Part shown: one piece after another, positions 1,166 to 10,522 of the stretch
Layout of the letters: each line of letters starts with the position of its first letter
Position numbering within the stretch: the first letter of the stretch is position 1
Source: Syntrophales bacterium
GTDB lineage: Bacteria > Desulfobacterota > Syntrophia > Syntrophales > UBA2192
NCBI GenBank assembly: GCA_025454095.1
Contig: JALOPC010000053.1
Span: 1 to 11,406 of the forward strand
Direction of reading: 5' to 3'
Length of the DNA stretch: 11,406 nt
The notes under the pieces: generated by a model
What the model was told of the DNA's origin: nothing
Seen by the model: only the letters and a program-made list of their open reading frames with translations
The model's database searches: none
Program-made: the position numbers and the translations under genes

Positions 1166-2533
1166 ATGAACGACAAACGGGGGAAGACAGTCCCGGACGG
1201 GAGGGACCCGGCGGAAAGGACCAGACGGGTCGCTCTCGTGACGCTGGGCTGCAAGGTCAACCAGTGCGATTCGGCGGGCATGGCCCAGCGGCTCGAGCAG
1301 CTGGGGCACACCCTGGTCGGCTTCGATGCCGAGGCCGATGTCTTCATCGTCAATACCTGCACGGTCACTGCGCGGACGGATTTCCAGTCGAGGCAGCTCA
1401 TCCGCCGAGCCGCCCGTAGAAACCCCTCCGCGCCCGTCATCGTGACAGGCTGCTATGCCCAGGTGGCGCCGGAGCTGCTCAAGGCGCTGCCCAATGTGCG
1501 CCTCGTTGCGGGCAATGTCGAAAAAGAACTCATCCCGGGGCTTGTGGGCTCGCTCAACGGGGGCCCCGCGGAGGTGCGGGTCCGGAACATCGGGCAAACC
1601 GGGGTCTTTTCGGGCCTCACCGCCGATCGATTCCCCGGCAGGACGAGGGCTTTTCTCAAGATCCAGGACGGCTGCAATGCCCGCTGCAGTTACTGCATTG
1701 TCCCGACGGCGCGGGGGCCCAGCCGCAGCATGCCGCCCGGGGATGTTCTCGAGCGGGTGGCGGCCCTGGCCGGTTCGGGCTGCCGCGAGATCGTGCTGAC
1801 GGGCGTGCACCTGGGCGCATGGGGAGCGGATCTTTCCCCGGCCTCGGGTCTTCCGCAGCTGCTCCGGCGCATCGAGGAGGCGGGAACAGTCGGCAGGCTC
1901 CGTCTCAGTTCGATCGAGCCTCTCGAGGTGAGCGGTGAGCTGATCGCCTGCCTGCGGGAGTCGGCGGTCTTGTGCCCGCATGTGCACATCCCGCTTCAGA
2001 GCGGCGACGACACGGTCCTCACCGCCATGGGAAGGCACTACGACCGGCGCTTCTTCAGGGACCTCGTGCACAGGCTTGCCGACGAAATCCCCGGCGTGGC
2101 CGTCGGTGTCGACGTCATGGCCGGGTTCCCCGGCGAGGGGGACCGGGAGTTCGAGAACACGCTGGAGCTGCTGCGCGGCCTTCCGGCGGCCTACTTCCAC
2201 GTCTTCCCCTACTCGGAGCGGCCGGGCACGAAGGCAGCGGCGCTGCCGGGAAAGGTCGAGGAGACTCTGCGCGCCCGTCGTGCTGCGGAGCTCAGGGCCC
2301 TGGGCCTCGCCAAGCGGGAGGCCTTCGCGAAACGGGCCGTCGGATCGAGGCAGACCGTTCTCGTCGAGGGCAGCCGCGACCGGAAAACGGGCCGCCTGAA
2401 GGGGTTCACCGGCAATTACATCCCCGTGCTCCTGGCGGGCGGGGGCAGGGACTCGATGAACCGCCTGATCGATGTCGTCATCGAATCCGCCGAGGCCGGG
2501 ACGGCAAGCGCCCGGGTGTGCCATGAACAGTGA
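1166..2533 (+). CDS. mtaB: tRNA (N6-threonylcarbamoyladenosine(37)-C2)-methylthiotransferase MtaB
   Basis: A radical SAM enzyme that adds a methylthio group to t6A37 (ms2t6A) in ANN-decoding tRNAs; it acts in the cytoplasm with two [4Fe-4S] clusters. The 455-residue length is normal. The N-terminal UPF0004 domain has its three cluster cysteines at C29 (TLGCKVNQ), C65 (NTCTVT) and C96 (TGCYAQ). The radical SAM motif is C170, C174, C177 (GCNARCSYC), and a TRAM-like RNA-binding domain covers about 393-443. The LGCKVNQ and NTCTVT wording points to the MtaB branch rather than MiaB or RimO. The ATG at 1166 follows AGGGAC (1155-1160) at five bases and fits the family N-terminus apart from a polar lead of about 20 residues. 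It overlaps rnc by 11 nt, which suggests translational coupling. Confidence 0.9.
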   Translation: MNDKRGKTVPDGRDPAERTRRVALVTLGCKVNQCDSAGMAQRLEQLGHTLVGFDAEADVFIVNTCTVTARTDFQSRQLIRRAARRNPSAPVIVTGCYAQVAPELLKALPNVRLVAGNVEKELIPGLVGSLNGGPAEVRVRNIGQTGVFSGLTADRFPGRTRAFLKIQDGCNARCSYCIVPTARGPSRSMPPGDVLERVAALAGSGCREIVLTGVHLGAWGADLSPASGLPQLLRRIEEAGTVGRLRLSSIEPLEVSGELIACLRESAVLCPHVHIPLQSGDDTVLTAMGRHYDRRFFRDLVHRLADEIPGVAVGVDVMAGFPGEGDREFENTLELLRGLPAAYFHVFPYSERPGTKAAALPGKVEETLRARRAAELRALGLAKREAFAKRAVGSRQTVLVEGSRDRKTGRLKGFTGNYIPVLLAGGGRDSMNRLIDVVIESAEAGTASARVCHEQ

Positions 2534-3263
2534 CCGCCGGATGCGGCTCGAGGCTCTCGAGGAGGCCCTGGGGTACCGATTCAACGACCCCTCCCTGCTG
2601 GACTGCGCCCTCACGCACCGTTCCTACGCGAACGAGAACCCGGACCTGCTGAAGCAGGACAACGAGCGCCTCGAGTTTCTCGGCGATGCCGTATTGACCC
2701 TGTGCATCAGCGACATGCTGATGAAGAAATTCCCGGACTGCACGGAAGGGGATCTCTCCAAGATCCGCTCCTCCATCGTCAACGAGAAGCCCCTGGCCAG
2801 GCTGGCCAAGGAGCTTCACCTGGGGGACTACCTGCTTCTGGGCCGGGGCGAGGACATCTCCGGCGGGAGACTCAAACATTCGCTTCTCGCCAACGCGTTC
2901 GAGGCCATCATTGCCGCCATCTACTGCGACACGGGCTTTGACGGTGTGTGCGCCTTTGTCGGCAGGCGGTTCCTCCGCCTGCTGGACACGGGCGACATCA
3001 AGGTCCTCTACCAGGACTACAAGACCAGCCTCCAGGAGATCACCCAGAACCGTTTCCGGATCATCCCGCGGTACAGCGTGCTCAGGGAGTTCGGGCCCGA
3101 CCACGACAAGGTCTTCCAGATCCGGGTGAGCGTCGGCGACATCGTAAGCACGGCAGGTTTGGGCCGAAACAAGAAAGAAGCCGAGCAGAGGGCCGCCAAG
3201 AAGGCCCTCGAGGCCATCGAAAGCCTCCGGCTGCCCGACAATGGAGAAGACGTGCAGGAGTGA
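2523..3263 (+). CDS. rnc: ribonuclease III
   Basis: Cleaves double-stranded RNA, including the 30S rRNA precursor and structured mRNAs. The 246-residue protein is of normal length. The catalytic domain (about 8-155) has the signature NERLEFLGDAV (47-57), with E48, E51 and D55 matching E. coli E38, E41 and D45. E127 in LLANAFEA matches E117. N124 replaces E. coli D114; I believe Asn is common there in other bacteria, so this is not evidence of inactivation. A double-stranded RNA-binding domain covers about 165-232. I chose the ATG at 2523, inside the mtaB 3' end, because the family N-terminus begins there. A longer in-frame extension to 2472 lies wholly within mtaB. RNase III is noteworthy here because long inverted repeats at 6586-6694 and 8963-9422 could form its substrates. 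Confidence 0.93.
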   Translation: MNSDRRMRLEALEEALGYRFNDPSLLDCALTHRSYANENPDLLKQDNERLEFLGDAVLTLCISDMLMKKFPDCTEGDLSKIRSSIVNEKPLARLAKELHLGDYLLLGRGEDISGGRLKHSLLANAFEAIIAAIYCDTGFDGVCAFVGRRFLRLLDTGDIKVLYQDYKTSLQEITQNRFRIIPRYSVLREFGPDHDKVFQIRVSVGDIVSTAGLGRNKKEAEQRAAKKALEAIESLRLPDNGEDVQE

Positions 3264-4353
3264 GTGCCGCACCGCAGCAGAAAATAAGGTGGAAGAGTCT
3301 CCCTTCCACAACTCAACACTCAAAACTCATAACTCAAAATTTTCTGTTACTGGACCGGACAGGCCGAATATTTCCGGCAACGCGGATGCGGTTACGGAAG
3401 CGGGCATGCGCGAAACAGTGAGCGCCTGCCGCGCCGGGAACGGCGGACGATACGACCGCGCGGAGATCGCCTTTTACGGGGGCAGTTTCACGGGCATGCC
3501 CCGCGAGGAGCAGATGGCCCTTTTGGCGACGGCGGCGGGACTGATTGCGGAAGGCGCCGCGCATTGCATCCGTATCTCCGCCCGCCCCGATGACATCGAC
3601 GAGGCCCGGCTCGACACCCTCGCGGCGATGGGGGTGAGGACCGTGGAGATCGGCGCCCAGTCCATGGACGACGAGGTGCTCCGGAGGGCGGGGCGGGGCC
3701 ACAGCGCCGACGATGTTCGCAGGGCCGTGGGACTCTGCAGGGCCAAGGGGTTCGAGACGGGCCTTCACCTCATGGCGGGACTCCCCGGGGAGAGCCGTGA
3801 CTCCTTCGCGGCTTCCGTCGCGGAGGTGATCCGGATCGTCCCGGACACGGTCCGCATCCACCCCGTACTCGTCTTCCGCGACACGGAACTGGCACGCCGT
3901 TACGCCCGGGGGCAATACCGTCCCCTCTCCCTGGACGAGGCGATAAGCTGGTGCAAATCGGCGCTCGTGAACTTCACCAGGGCGCAAATCCCCGTCATTC
4001 GCCTCGGGCTGCAGGCGACGGACGAAATGGACAAAGAAGGGTGCATCCTTGCCGGCCCCTGGCACCCGGCCTTTCGGAGTCTCGTGGAGGCGGAGATATT
4101 CCGGGACATGGCCCTGGAACTGATGGACAGGGCCTCCGCGGGCGGAACAGAACGGGTTTTCCGCGTGGCCCCCACGGACCTGTCGAGCTTCAACGGCCCC
4201 CGGGGAAGGAACCGATCGCTGCTGGAGTCGCGTTTCGGCGGCGTGTCGATTGCCGCCCTCCCCGACCCGGCGATCCCGAGGGGTGCCCTGAAGATGCAGG
4301 ACGGCCTGCGGGAGTACGGGACATCGATCACGGAGGTCACGTCGCTTGTTTAA
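3241..4353 (+). CDS. Elp3-like radical SAM protein, cluster-binding N-terminus missing (probably inactive)
   Basis: The open frame matches the short bacterial COG1243-type radical SAM family often found between rnc and era. Recognisable blocks are AFYGGSFTGMP (residues 77-87), VEIGAQSMDDEVLRRAGRG (135-152), GLHLMAGLPG (174-183) and GLQATDEM...ILAGPWHPAF (256-278). What should come first, about 25 residues ending in a CX3CX2C motif (GCPHRCxFCNQ in relatives), is absent. Family similarity resumes only at about PNISG (codons near 3364). Before that lies the ACTCNNN repeat. No forward frame of 3264-3365 contains the motif, so a simple frameshift does not explain the loss. The ATG at 3241 lies inside rnc with no ribosome site; GTG 3289 or ATG 3406 are the next in-frame choices. 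The remaining 330 codons are intact, so the loss is recent, the shortened protein has another use, or the join is an assembly error. The 3' end overlaps era by 8 nt and carries its Shine-Dalgarno. Confidence 0.7.
   Translation: MEKTCRSECRTAAENKVEESPFHNSTLKTHNSKFSVTGPDRPNISGNADAVTEAGMRETVSACRAGNGGRYDRAEIAFYGGSFTGMPREEQMALLATAAGLIAEGAAHCIRISARPDDIDEARLDTLAAMGVRTVEIGAQSMDDEVLRRAGRGHSADDVRRAVGLCRAKGFETGLHLMAGLPGESRDSFAASVAEVIRIVPDTVRIHPVLVFRDTELARRYARGQYRPLSLDEAISWCKSALVNFTRAQIPVIRLGLQATDEMDKEGCILAGPWHPAFRSLVEAEIFRDMALELMDRASAGGTERVFRVAPTDLSSFNGPRGRNRSLLESRFGGVSIAALPDPAIPRGALKMQDGLREYGTSITEVTSLV
3289..3309 (+). other. small perfect hairpin beside the ACTC repeat
   Basis: GTGGAAG (3289-3295) and CTTCCAC (3303-3309) form a perfect seven-pair stem with a seven-base loop, just upstream of the heptamer array. 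No T-run follows, so it is not an intrinsic terminator. It may mark the edge of the repeat unit. Confidence 0.4.
3311..3338 (+). repeat. ACTCNNN heptamer array (four units), probable solo arm
   Basis: Four consecutive seven-base units begin with ACTC: 3311-3317, 3318-3324, 3325-3331 and 3332-3338, with the last three bases varying (AAC, AAA, ATA, AAA). The array is AT-rich compared with its surroundings. It shares the seven-base period, with four constant and three variable bases, of the GGGTNNN arrays at 6586-6694 and 8963-9422. The sequence at its right end (TCAAAATTT, 3334-3342, then CTGT) recurs next to the 6660-6694 arm. No complementary GAGT arm is present nearby, so I read it as a single leftover arm. 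Confidence 0.6.
4332..4337 (+). promoter_or_regulatory. Shine-Dalgarno deciding the era TTG start
   Basis: GGAGGT lies eight bases before the TTG at 4346, inside the last codons of the radical SAM gene. It supports the unusual start codon and would keep era translated whether or not the upstream frame is made into protein. Confidence 0.7.
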
Positions 4354-6585: not shown

Positions 6586-6694
6586 GGGTATTGGGTATCG
6601 GGGACAGGGTATAGGGAAGGTACGGCAGATTATTTTGTATAAACGAAATCTTCATCCATCCCGAGACCCTAAACCCTGGACCCTAAACCCTTGC
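6586..6694. repeat. inverted GGGTNNN / CCCNNNN heptamer arms without a gene
   Basis: Left arm: five seven-base units starting with GGG at 6586, 6593, 6600, 6607 and 6614. Right arm: five units starting with CCC at 6660, 6667, 6674, 6681 and 6688. The two units at 6667 and 6681 are CCCTAAA, identical to a plant-type telomere repeat. Only 39 bp (6621-6659), visibly AT-rich, lie between the arms. On the minus strand the 39 bp contain ATGAAGATT (complement of 6647-6655), the same first nine bases as the four-helix-bundle gene at 8999. This could be a leftover of that gene in the opposite orientation, or chance. The arms begin one base after the der stop codon. I read the locus as a gene-less version of the 8963-9422 element. 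Confidence 0.7.
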
Positions 6695-8070: not shown

Positions 8071-8958
8071 TTGGAACTGACTTTCTTTCTCCAGCAGATG
8101 ATCAACGGTGTGGCCCTGGGGAGCCTCTACGGGCTCATCGCCATCGGCTACACCATGGTCTACGGGATCATCCGGCTCATCAATTTCGCCCACGGCGACG
8201 TCATGATGATGGGGTGCTACTTCGCCTACTTCGGCATCCTCATGTTCAGCCTCCCCTGGTGGGCCTCGTTCGTCGTCGCGATCGTCCTGACAGCCCTCCT
8301 GGGCATGATGATGGACAAGGGCGCGTACGTGCCCGTCCGTAACGCCCCGCGCATCTCGGCCCTCATCACGGCCATCGGCGTCTCGTTCCTGCTCGAAAAC
8401 CTCGGCCTCGTCGTCTTCGGGGGTCGTCCCAAGGGCTTCGAGACACCCGACATGTTCAGCGAGGTCTACGAGGTCGCCGGTCTCATGTTCCCCGCCCTGG
8501 TCCTCTGGACGCCCCTGCTGACCCTGGCCATCCTCGGCGTTGTCCTCTTCATCATCTACCGGACCAAGACGGGACGGGCCATGCGCTGCATCAGCCACGA
8601 CATGGAAACGACGCGGCTGATGGGCGTCGACGTCAACCGGATCATCTCGATCACCTTCGCCGTGGGCTCCGCAGCGGCGGCAGCGGGCGGGATCATGTGG
8701 GCCATGCGATACCCCGAGATCAACCCGCTGATGGGCATCATCCCCGGCTTCAAGGCCTTCGTGGCCGCCGTCCTGGGCGGCATCGGCAACATCACCGGTG
8801 CGATGCTCGGGGGGCTTTTGCTGGGGGTTGCGGAGATCCTGCTCGTGGCCCTGATGCCGGAGCTGGCCGGCTACCGCGACGCCGTGGCCTTCGGCCTGCT
8901 GATCCTGATCCTGCTCTTCCGCCCCACGGGGCTGATGGGAACGAAACTGCCGGATTAA
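8071..8958 (+). CDS. livH: branched-chain amino-acid ABC transporter permease LivH
   Basis: One of the two inner-membrane channel subunits. The 295-residue protein is almost entirely hydrophobic segments. Family blocks: LQQMINGVALGSLYGLIAIG (7-26), YTMVYGIIRLINFAHGDVMM (27-46), the cytoplasmic coupling region GRAMRCISHDMETTRLMGVD (168-187) and GGIGNITGAMLGG (236-248), ending FRPTGLMG. The start is a TTG at 8071 with GGGGA (8058-8062) eight bases upstream. The ATG at 8098 would remove the first nine conserved residues and has no ribosome site. The stop TAA is four bases before the first GGGT heptamer of the inserted element, which separates livH from its usual neighbour livM by 514 bp. Confidence 0.9.
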   Translation: MELTFFLQQMINGVALGSLYGLIAIGYTMVYGIIRLINFAHGDVMMMGCYFAYFGILMFSLPWWASFVVAIVLTALLGMMMDKGAYVPVRNAPRISALITAIGVSFLLENLGLVVFGGRPKGFETPDMFSEVYEVAGLMFPALVLWTPLLTLAILGVVLFIIYRTKTGRAMRCISHDMETTRLMGVDVNRIISITFAVGSAAAAAGGIMWAMRYPEINPLMGIIPGFKAFVAAVLGGIGNITGAMLGGLLLGVAEILLVALMPELAGYRDAVAFGLLILILLFRPTGLMGTKLPD

Positions 8959-8962
8959 AAAA

Positions 8963-8997
8963 GGGTATTGGGTCTCGGGTATCGGGTATAGGGCAAA
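8963..8997 (+). repeat. left arm, five GGG-initial heptamers
   Basis: Units are GGGTATT, GGGTCTC (8970), GGGTATC (8977), GGGTATA (8984) and GGGCAAA (8991). Five G3 runs spaced by four bases could also form a G-quadruplex in the RNA or in the plus DNA strand. The AGGG at 8990-8993, five bases before the ATG at 8999, doubles as the Shine-Dalgarno of the enclosed gene. Confidence 0.8.
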
Positions 8998-8998
8998 A

Positions 8999-9370
8999 AT
9001 GAAGATTCAGAGCTATAGAGAGCTGATTGCCTATCAGAAAGCTTATCAACTGGCACTTGACATATACAAGACCACGAAGAAATTCCCGAAGGACGAACTG
9101 TTCGGGATCGTTTCTCAGATGCGAAGAAGTGCTGTTTCAGTTCCTTGCAATATCGCAGAAGGATATTGTCGAAATCACAGAAAAGAATACGTGCAATTTC
9201 TAAACATTGCTTTTGGTTCATGTGGCGAGTTGGAAACACTGTTATCTCTGTCCAAAGATCTCGGATATCTTGCTCTGAATGATTTCAATACGTTTGATGA
9301 ACAATTGAAGGACGTTTCAAGATTATTATGGAAATTGATTGTTTCGTTAAAGGGCCGACAGCCGGAATAA
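8999..9370 (+). CDS. four-helix-bundle protein, S23 / 23S rRNA intervening-sequence family
   Basis: The 123-residue protein clearly belongs to the S23 (TIGR02436-type) four-helix-bundle family, first known from intervening sequences in the 23S rRNA of Leptospira and others. Key blocks are SYRELIAYQKAYQLALDIY (5-23), then SQMRRSAVSVPCNIAEGY (39-56) and RKEYVQFLNIAFGSCGELET (61-80). It has no known catalytic residues. Relatives form oligomers (pentamers in solved structures) with a basic surface, and their cellular role is unknown; nucleic-acid binding has been proposed. Here it is not in rRNA but between livH and livM, enclosed by inverted heptamer arms. Its base composition and codon choice (many AAA, GAA, ATT, TTT) differ from the GC-rich neighbours, a sign of separate origin. 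Its frame is intact, so it has been kept or has arrived recently. Confidence 0.9.
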   Translation: MKIQSYRELIAYQKAYQLALDIYKTTKKFPKDELFGIVSQMRRSAVSVPCNIAEGYCRNHRKEYVQFLNIAFGSCGELETLLSLSKDLGYLALNDFNTFDEQLKDVSRLLWKLIVSLKGRQPE

Positions 9371-9387
9371 GAATGATCTTCTTCATT

Positions 9388-9422
9388 CCCTAGACCCGAT
9401 ACCCCATACCCGAGACCCTGTT
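9388..9422 (+). repeat. right arm, five CCC-initial heptamers
   Basis: Units are CCCTAGA, CCCGATA (9395), CCCCATA (9402), CCCGAGA (9409) and CCCTGTT (9416). They pair with the left arm in seven-base register. Just beyond lies TTGAGA (9422-9427), five of six matches to a -35 box, but no acceptable -10 follows at 16-18 bases. I therefore do not call a promoter for livM here. Confidence 0.75.
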
Positions 9423-9472: not shown

Positions 9473-10522
9473 ATGGACATCAATCATAAACGAAACGTCC
9501 TCCTCTCCGTTCTCGGCACGATGCTCGTGCTGGCGGTGGTGCAGCTTGCCGGCAGCCACGGCACGGAGTACCAGATCCGCATCCTGAACAACATCGCCAT
9601 CTTCATCGTCATGGCCGTGAGCTACAACCTCATCAACGGCGTCACGGGGCAGTTCTCGCTCGCGCCCAACGCATTCGTCGCCCTCGGCGCGTACACGTCG
9701 GCCCTGCTCACCCTGACGCCGGCGGAGAAGGAGATCTCGTTCATCATCGAGCCCTGCATCTGGCCCCTGAGCGTGATCACGACCCCCTTCCTCGTCTCGC
9801 TGCTGGCAGCGGGTGTCGTGTCGGCCCTTCTGGCGTTCGTCATGGGTTTCCCCGTTTTCCGCACCCGCGGGGACTATCTGGCCATCGTAACCCTCGGCTT
9901 CGGGGAGGTGGTGCGCGTGATTGCCAACAACACGCAGAGCATCACCAACGGCCCGCTCGGCCTCAAGGGAATCGCCGAGCACACAACCCTCTGGTGGTCC
10001 TGCGGCGCGGCCATTGTCACCGTGTTCCTGATAGGCCGGATGGTCCGCAGCAGCTACGGCATGGCCATGAAGGCCATCAAGTACGACGAGGCGGCGGCCG
10101 AGGCCGTGGGCATCAACACCTACTGGCACAAGATGCTCGCCTTCACGACGAGCGGCTTCTTCCAGGGAATCGGCGGGGGTCTTCTGGCCCACCTGATCAC
10201 CACGATCTCGCCCACGCTCTTCACCTTCTTCCTGACCTTCAACCTCCTGATCATCATCGTCATGGGCGGTCTCGGCAGCACGACCGGGGCCATTCTCGGG
10301 GCCATCCTCTTCACCTGGGGCGGCGAGTGGCTTCGCTTCGTCGACGAGCCCATGAACCTCGGCTTCGTCGAGATCCCCGGCATCCCCGGCATGCGCATGG
10401 TCATCTTCTCGTGCATCCTGATCTTCATCATGATTTTCGCCCGCCACGGAATCATGGGGACGAGGGAGTTCAACTGGAACTGGCTGTGCAGGAAGCTCGG
10501 TATCGGAGGTCGCGCCCGATGA
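9473..10522 (+). CDS. livM: branched-chain amino-acid ABC transporter permease LivM
   Basis: Second inner-membrane channel subunit, partner of LivH. The 349-residue protein has a short polar N-terminus and many hydrophobic helices. Family blocks: SYNLINGVTGQFSLAPNAF (50-68), FPVFRTRGDYLAIVTLGFGE (126-145), SITNGPLGLKGI (156-167), the coupling region SYGMAMKAIKYDEAAAEAVGIN (194-215) and VMGGLGSTTGAILGA (263-277), ending with RHGIMG and a charged tail. The ATG at 9473 has a weak site (GGA, 9461-9463), perhaps because it was once coupled to livH before the element at 8963-9422 came between. Its stop overlaps the livG start as ATGA, so livM, livG and livF are tightly coupled. Confidence 0.9.
   Translation: MDINHKRNVLLSVLGTMLVLAVVQLAGSHGTEYQIRILNNIAIFIVMAVSYNLINGVTGQFSLAPNAFVALGAYTSALLTLTPAEKEISFIIEPCIWPLSVITTPFLVSLLAAGVVSALLAFVMGFPVFRTRGDYLAIVTLGFGEVVRVIANNTQSITNGPLGLKGIAEHTTLWWSCGAAIVTVFLIGRMVRSSYGMAMKAIKYDEAAAEAVGINTYWHKMLAFTTSGFFQGIGGGLLAHLITTISPTLFTFFLTFNLLIIIVMGGLGSTTGAILGAILFTWGGEWLRFVDEPMNLGFVEIPGIPGMRMVIFSCILIFIMIFARHGIMGTREFNWNWLCRKLGIGGRAR

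Follow-up and report, generated by a model that had tools for sequence, protein, structure and literature searches.

The window, as we call the whole stretch of 11,406 nucleotides analysed here, carries a short insert between two transporter genes. The arms, the S23 gene, its two neighbours and the gene-less element of the window are read on the forward strand. The codirectional neighbours livH (8071-8958, stop codon 8956-8958) and livM (9473-10522, start at 9473) both encode branched-chain amino acid permeases (PF02653); their names are taken from the initial annotation. Between them lies an intact gene (8999-9370) for a four-helix-bundle protein of 123 aa of the 23S rRNA-intervening-sequence (S23) type, enclosed by two arms of 31 bp each. 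The left arm (8963-8993) is built of GGG-initial 7-mers of the GGGTNNN type and starts 4 nt past the livH stop codon. The right arm (9388-9418) consists of CCC-type 7-mers and is the reverse complement of the left arm at exactly 26 of 31 positions in the seven-base register, where the initial annotation had given about 26. Even when shifted by 7 the arms still pair (20/24 and 22/24), and the inverted-repeat score is 21, a value to which none of 1000 dinucleotide shuffles came closer than 12.5. In the RNA fold, the whole insert is closed by the stem of the two arms (MFE z -4.1; equalled by 0 of 100 shuffles). The S23 gene is the single sense ORF of at least 80 aa with a start between the arms; no transposase is encoded there, and two overlapping antisense ORFs are without Pfam match. 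The G+C content of the S23 ORF is 40%, as compared to 62-64% in livM and livH. An intact S23 gene at this position, richer in AT and unaccompanied by a transposase, is what the initial annotation had described, and all three points hold. A search of the window against Rfam gave no match.

The protein exceeds the curated cut-offs of its family over the full domain, with 131.1 bits against PF05635 (E 2.3e-38, cut-off 33.8, residues 7-110) and 127.3 bits against TIGR02436 (E 2.8e-37, cut-off 24), and is thus a member of the S23 / 23S_rRNA_IVP family. Matches to Avd models are weaker (PF22296, E 1.4e-5; NF033474, 1.1e-7; phrog_3206, 1.1e-11). S23 genes (IVP, "four helix bundle protein") are common and, to our knowledge, have no known function. 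Among ten chosen pairs one was saturated, and the low dN/dS values of the nine others (0.02-0.14) indicate strong purifying selection on the S23 protein. It had no match in a defence library, and no S23 was found in the phage records searched. The nearest solved structures are 2gsc and 2rld, with five chains per entry in both, and a Xanthomonas relative is described as a homopentameric ring in the parts of PMC4990558 available to us.

With its S23 ORF inside a terminal stem of 26/31 pairs that closes the RNA fold, the insert appears to be built like an rRNA intervening sequence (IVS). It lies between two permease genes and not in a helix of 23S or 16S rRNA, and is therefore not classed as one.

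A second, gene-less element of 105 bp (6586-6690) is located between der and a periplasmic-binding-protein gene of the same window. Its left arm (6586-6616) starts 1 nt past the der stop codon and is followed by a loop of 43 bases (6617-6659), related to the loops of other gene-less elements in the same genome, and by the right arm (6660-6690); the arm unit is that of the S23 element. The gene names era, der and rnc used in this study were read from translations, and the Pfam domains agree. The window also encodes RNase III (2472-3263; PF14622, PF00636, dsrm), the cutter of rRNA intervening sequences elsewhere; its presence here is probably a coincidence. About 46 bp past the end of this ORF there is a lone 7-mer array of the AACTCAA type (3310-3339), for which no inverted partner was seen. 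Arrays resembling it (TTGAGTT) occur near S23 loci of genome G007, at L079 and weakly at L080.

Heptamer arms around S23 genes

Arms of this kind were surveyed around two sets of S23 genes. PF05635 was present in 32 of 60 genomes, the window's own included. Set A comprises 70 S23 genes from the window's order and covers a subset of the S23 places in these 32 genomes. Of 101 domain hits, 71 were near full length and unique, and all but one of these had 100 nt or more of flanking sequence. Set B comes from named genomes of many phyla: 80 loci among 522 relatives gave at least 82 S23 domains in at least 78 loci, 76 of them with flanks. Arms were called at an inverted-arm score of at least 14.

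Matched inverted arms enclose 51 of the 70 genes in set A and, among the matches listed, 55 of 76 in set B; control places in the same loci had arms in 0/420 and, again among the matches listed, 4/456 cases. When the left arm of one element was set against the right arm of another, 7/348 combinations matched in set A and 11/376 in set B (among the matches listed). The two arms of one element match each other and arms of different elements rarely do. The units themselves vary between elements (GGGTATC, AGTGAAA, AAGGCTG, GTCGTAC, TTAAGTA, GTCGGTA, CAGTTAT and many more). Among lags of 4-12, a period of 7 in both flanks was found at 34/70 genes of set A and 47/76 of set B, a period of 8 at 8/70 and 4/76, and every other lag at 0 or 1 (set B among the matches listed). 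Median lengths are 466 bp for the element and 28 bp for the arm, and in 96 of 106 elements G exceeds C in the left arm on the sense strand. Arm-bearing records of set B, among the matches listed, are titled Chloroflexi, Planctomycetota, Omnitrophota, Acidobacteriaceae, Fibrobacteres, Nitrospirae, Bacteroidetes, Calothrix, Treponema, Armatimonadota, Zixibacteria, Geobacter and Methanophagales archaea, among others, and include the Patescibacteria-type Nomurabacteria, Uhrbacteria and Staskawiczbacteria.

In both sets together, 40 of 146 S23 genes remained below the arm threshold. Of the 27 weakest-armed genes, 18 are still accompanied by a 7-mer array less than or equal to 600 nt away, on one side or both, and 9 are not; rRNA was found at 0 of 28 S23 loci with weak or 8-mer arms. 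Genomes G003 and G005 each hold different units side by side, every one matched across its element. One contig of G003 carries three S23 genes within about 4 kb (L065, contig C44) and one of G005 carries two within about 5.5 kb (L071, contig C131); the armed ones among them differ in unit. Seven S23 genes (L052, L056, L066, L072, L075, L084, L097), mostly with arms of 8-base repeats, have neighbourhoods conserved between genomes, unlike most others, and are possibly settled copies.

S23 matches were also present in 40 plasmid records, of which 14 were examined, mostly the best matches and all of them cyanobacterial. These 14 copies represent 10 distinct neighbourhoods (L296/L297, L299/L300 and L302/L303/L304 share theirs). 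All 14 have arms, with scores of at least 14.5, and 0 of 84 control pairs in the same loci reached 14. Period 7 is seen in both flanks of 12 copies; of the remaining two, one has a period of 8 and the other is weak. The gene annotated upstream runs in the same direction in 12/14. Two of the copies (L301, L307) lie inside CRISPR-cas operons, at the cas6 / cas4 junction and at that of cas10 with a cmr3-family gene.

Insertion sites and element boundaries

Gene calls around the elements were made with a longest-ORF heuristic, for which errors are expected in GC-rich DNA. The upstream gene is codirectional in 86 of 98 elements (none was called for 8 of 106), and in 62 of these 86 its stop codon is at most 15 nt from the left arm; these counts and those of orientation between genes carry errors, because the same kind of heuristic mislabelled the window's own gene-less der-livJ element. 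An orientation count of gene-less elements in the window's genome (24 distinct, 9 usable) was discarded. Between two codirectional genes, 67 elements are in sense and 4 in antisense direction, and in a number of elements the stop codon falls within the first 7-mers. Such placement could reflect selection for harmless, co-transcribed insertions, or targeting.

The initial annotation had proposed a dispersed element, to be checked by looking for empty sites in relatives, and had regarded mobility as unsupported if close relatives all kept gene and arms between livH and livM and no further arm-flanked copies existed in the genome. The proposal withstood this comparison. In G002 the livH-livM spacer is empty, with 2 bp; G006 has a decayed S23 element at the same junction (arm score 11.5, below threshold), and G001, G004 and G005 have other spacers. 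The era-der junction behaves likewise: it measures 4 bp in the window's genome (G000) and 6 bp in G006, and the genes overlap in G004, while an S23 element is intact there in G003 and truncated in G001 (arm score 12.5, below threshold). The S23 protein of the G003 era-der element is about 88-89% identical to the window copy. A reciprocal case is found in Nostoc sp. ATCC 53789, in which two plasmids carry near-identical operons (identical aa: A 143/146, B 89/95, C 510/513). An S23 element with GGAGTCA/GAAGTCA-type arms occupies A|B on pNsp_a, and one with GGGAAAA-type arms occupies B|C on pNsp_c; each junction is uninterrupted in the other plasmid, with a 3-bp spacer, so that each plasmid provides the empty site of the other. 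The two S23 proteins are identical at 48/121 positions. Together with the arm-flanked S23 genes found elsewhere, the empty junctions support dispersal well. Further arm-flanked copies, for which the initial annotation had suggested a search, are common in other genomes; the window's own, incomplete genome yielded a single S23 gene.

Homology between the G000 and G003 elements (80.5% over 467 bp) ends at most 3 nt from the outer arm edges on both sides: it extends 56 and 80 nt past the S23 domain, and the arm edges are at 53 and 83. For another pair, one element being from the window's order and the other from a MAG titled Chloroflexi, the corresponding values are 42/43 and 41/40, with ends at most 1 nt from the arm edges. 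Although 111 of 144 pairs were scored as element-limited, these are mostly matches inside the gene, and the boundary evidence is limited to the pairs that reach the arms. No clear target-site duplication was seen by eye between filled and empty junctions; the one candidate, a TTCTA repeat at a single junction, overlaps the array. Comparison of genomes, on which the case for movement rests, shows that arms and gene insert and are inherited as one unit and that the arms mark its ends.

Polymerase slippage at hairpins, in steps of 7 nt, has been proposed for heptamer excess (cited in the portions of PMC4679880 and PMC4692102 seen) and might generate simple-sequence arrays near which S23 genes merely happen to lie, the shared units reflecting mutation habits of the host. 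That units are genome-specific fits this explanation. The matching of arms within but rarely between elements does not, nor do the coexistence of different matched units in G003 and G005 and the homology of two pairs that stops at the outer arm edges. In addition, 7-mer arrays were found at 0 of 20 Y1 transposase loci (G001-G006, G061), all from S23-bearing genomes; one of these loci had a short 8-mer array. We consider slippage, already disfavoured on these grounds, very improbable.

Gene-less hairpins and their cognate S23 genes

The assembly of the window's genome (G000; 2.2 Mb, 377 contigs, 86% complete) contains many gene-less relatives of the S23 element. Four GGG units in 7-bp register were matched 433 times with at most 2 mismatches, as compared to 36 times for the reversed pattern. 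Left and right arm pairs with a gap of 40-60 bases gave 237 matches, compared to 3 for the reversed pattern; one element yields several matches, and with about 22 distinct elements in the first 100 rows the genome should contain roughly 50 in all. An alignment of 17 gene-less elements revealed a related loop in common. Judged by alignment, one loop end appears similar to the 3' terminus of the S23 element (GGGAATGAAGAAGATC... versus GGGAAGGAAGAAGATT...). The hairpins look like internal-deletion derivatives of the S23 element, and as short inverted-repeat elements that share ends with a gene-bearing element of the same genome they conform to the definition of a MITE. Short paired arrays with the unit of the local S23 element also occur in G061 and G062. 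Some other arrangements were seen. At three loci (L004, L011 and L244, the latter at G000:C25:2022-2100) 7-mer arm pairs surround an intrinsic-terminator-like hairpin instead of the usual loop, and at one (L292, G062:C41) inverted 7-mer arrays about 1 kb apart surround a 342-aa non-S23 ORF.

The number of hairpins was compared with the presence of an S23 gene of the same lineage in eight genomes. Paired GGGTNNN matches, with reversed-pattern controls in brackets, numbered 317 (10) in G003, 73 (1) in G005, 40 (9) in G001, 38 (10) in G006, 17 (14) in G004, 12 (11) in G002 and 4 (4) in G007, besides the 237 (3) of G000. An intact S23 of the window's lineage was found in G000 and G003 only, and fragments in G001 and G006. 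GGATTC matches numbered 80 in G005, where an S23 with GGATTC-type arms is intact, 33 in G003, 2 in G001 and 0 in the five others. In two other genomes, 76 and 117 matches were obtained with the arm unit of the S23 gene present there, compared to 0-12 and 0-6 in eight others. These counts support a dependence of the gene-less hairpins on their cognate S23, an argument that rests on eight genomes, two units and incomplete assemblies. The chief exception is G005, with its 73 GGGT matches and no intact cognate S23 found; none was found either in G001 and G006, with about 40 matches each, and the 33 GGATTC matches of G003 stand without an S23 shown to carry GGATTC arms. A very abundant 7-mer array family was met in G065 (Calothrix brevissima, the genome of L186), where 1254 matches were obtained with GACTWTTGACTWTTGAC, the reversed pattern used as a control.

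S23 lineage and arm unit go together. The similarity of units between elements is 0.05-0.08 at less than 45% S23 identity, 0.49 at 65-75%, 0.62 at 75-85% and 0.88 at 85% or more, a rise which plain co-inheritance predicts too. Between G000 and G003 the synonymous sites of S23 differ at 73% and the arm units have a similarity of 0.95; arms that are nearly the same despite such divergence suggest constraint on the arms, or their correction by many other copies.

S23 might also have a role, for the host or selfish, apart from movement, and the element be moved wholly in trans by another system; a Y1/RAYT-type transposase, as in the case of REP elements, would be an example. In such systems the hairpin ends typically lack a clear duplication. 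Y1_Tnp was present in 17 of 19 S23-bearing genomes as compared to 12 of 20 without S23, a difference that is not decisive. Y1_Tnp was found in neither G000 (86% complete) nor G064, despite the intact element of G000 and its GGGT hairpins, the second most of the eight genomes. The absence of 7-mer arrays from the 20 Y1 loci points the same way, and on both counts the window element departs from the REP/RAYT type. Purifying selection on S23 and the agreement of its lineage with the unit likewise argue against a mover in trans, which we regard as quite unlikely. Reverse transcription in trans was a separate candidate; it was rejected, since a search of 19 S23-bearing genomes left 11 without an RVT_1 match, two of these 11 being rated 100% complete.

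A possible mode of spread and related systems

We propose that the insert of about 456 bp (8963-9418) is probably a mobile element whose S23 protein recognises the arms and helps to spread both its own element and the gene-less hairpins, strand joining being left to the host. S23, perhaps as a pentameric ring, would recognise its own arm unit as an RNA or single-stranded-DNA hairpin. It would then assist in copying the element that encodes it and, acting in trans, the gene-less hairpins, and insertion would take place in sense direction at junctions just past stop codons. The strand-joining enzyme would have to be supplied by the host. By analogy to rRNA intervening sequences, the stem may allow excision of the insert from the transcript, which would make the insertion harmless. 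If S23 does bind its own unit and move hairpins, it would represent a mobile element with freely changing ends and without a known strand-joining enzyme of its own.

Some of these features could also be expected of an IVS-like RNA processing module, in which RNase III cuts the stem in the mRNA and separates or stabilises cistrons. S23 would then be a passenger or act as an RNA chaperone, and spread would be rare and incidental. The initial annotation, too, had supposed that the element may cut or stabilise its host mRNA. In the 23S rRNA IVS of Coxiella, an element of 428-444 nt, RNase III cuts the 28-bp terminal stem that encloses the S23 ORF, and tandem GACAGAT heptamers occur in the 5' arm in varying copy number (PMC4990558, seen in part). 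This layout, the stable RNA fold of the window element and the sense orientation within operons are consistent with processing. A site that serves the host needs neither freely changing units nor abundant gene-less copies, and the presence of the elements differs between near relatives. Moreover, mismatches in 106 arm pairs gave no signal of a constraint on the RNA (G-U 93, A-C 79, p 0.32). We regard such a processing module as unlikely.

The preferred reading, that of a mobile element recognised by its own S23, invites comparison with several known systems. Mobility has been proposed earlier for the S23-bearing IVS of Coxiella and Leptospira (as cited in PMC4990558, in the part seen), and the Coxiella IVS shares with our elements an S23 ORF enclosed by a terminal stem with heptamers. 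Unlike rRNA IVS, our elements lie at junctions of protein-coding operons, with no rRNA at the 28 S23 loci tested; both their arms are many-copy 7-mer arrays, the units of which differ between elements; and S23 elements have their unit in common with gene-less ones. The Avd protein of diversity-generating retroelements is a relative of S23 in sequence. The window's genome (86% complete) yielded no RVT_1 reverse transcriptase and the Avd models PF22296 and NF033474 scored below their cut-offs, which sets the window element apart from such retroelements.

Among openly licensed PubMed Central papers we found none that connects matched heptamer arms with S23 genes located elsewhere than in rRNA. 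Heptamer repeats of bacteria have been explained by slippage, quadruplexes and regulation, and the term S23 is absent from the main texts of PMC4692102, PMC2700814 and PMC4679880, as is helix bundle from that of PMC4692102. One class of heptanucleotide elements in Geobacter metallireducens consists of five tandem heptamers with paired sites on alternate strands (PMC2700814), and TAACTGA repeats are described in Beggiatoaceae (PMC4679880). Judged from the parts of these papers seen, both resemble our gene-less elements in being multicopy intergenic 7-mer arrays, and both were taken to be regulatory RNA or binding sites of regulators. The stem-loops in P6b of the Nostoc tRNA-Leu intron are also alike, with stems of 7-nt repeat motifs in two alternative classes, and differ in being gene-less and confined to one locus within a group I intron (PMC4476775, seen in part).

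More tentatively, and with somewhat less than even confidence, we suggest that S23 elements may form a general mobile class of bacteria and archaea without a known strand-joining enzyme. Its grammar would be two inverted 7-mer arrays of almost any unit, provided that it agrees between the arms. A cognate S23 ring would read this unit, and each S23 lineage would also spread gene-less hairpins of its own unit. The rRNA IVS would then be members located in rRNA, and the heptamers of Xanthomonas, Nostoc and Geobacter gene-less ones. S23 genes and heptamer repeats would in this way be tied together as the gene-bearing and gene-less forms of one element. In Xanthomonas and Nostoc, dispersed G-rich heptamers (GGGAATC / GGGGA(C/T)T) have been described; two Xanthomonas genomes contain 70 and 75 of them as inverted pairs, and only few such pairs were reported in Nostoc; downstream of ORFs, those of Xanthomonas lie mostly at most 50 bp from the stop codon, on the coding strand, and some overlap it (PMC4692102, as far as seen). 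There they are read as quadruplex-forming sequences, and here the same architecture would be that of the gene-less form of an S23 element.
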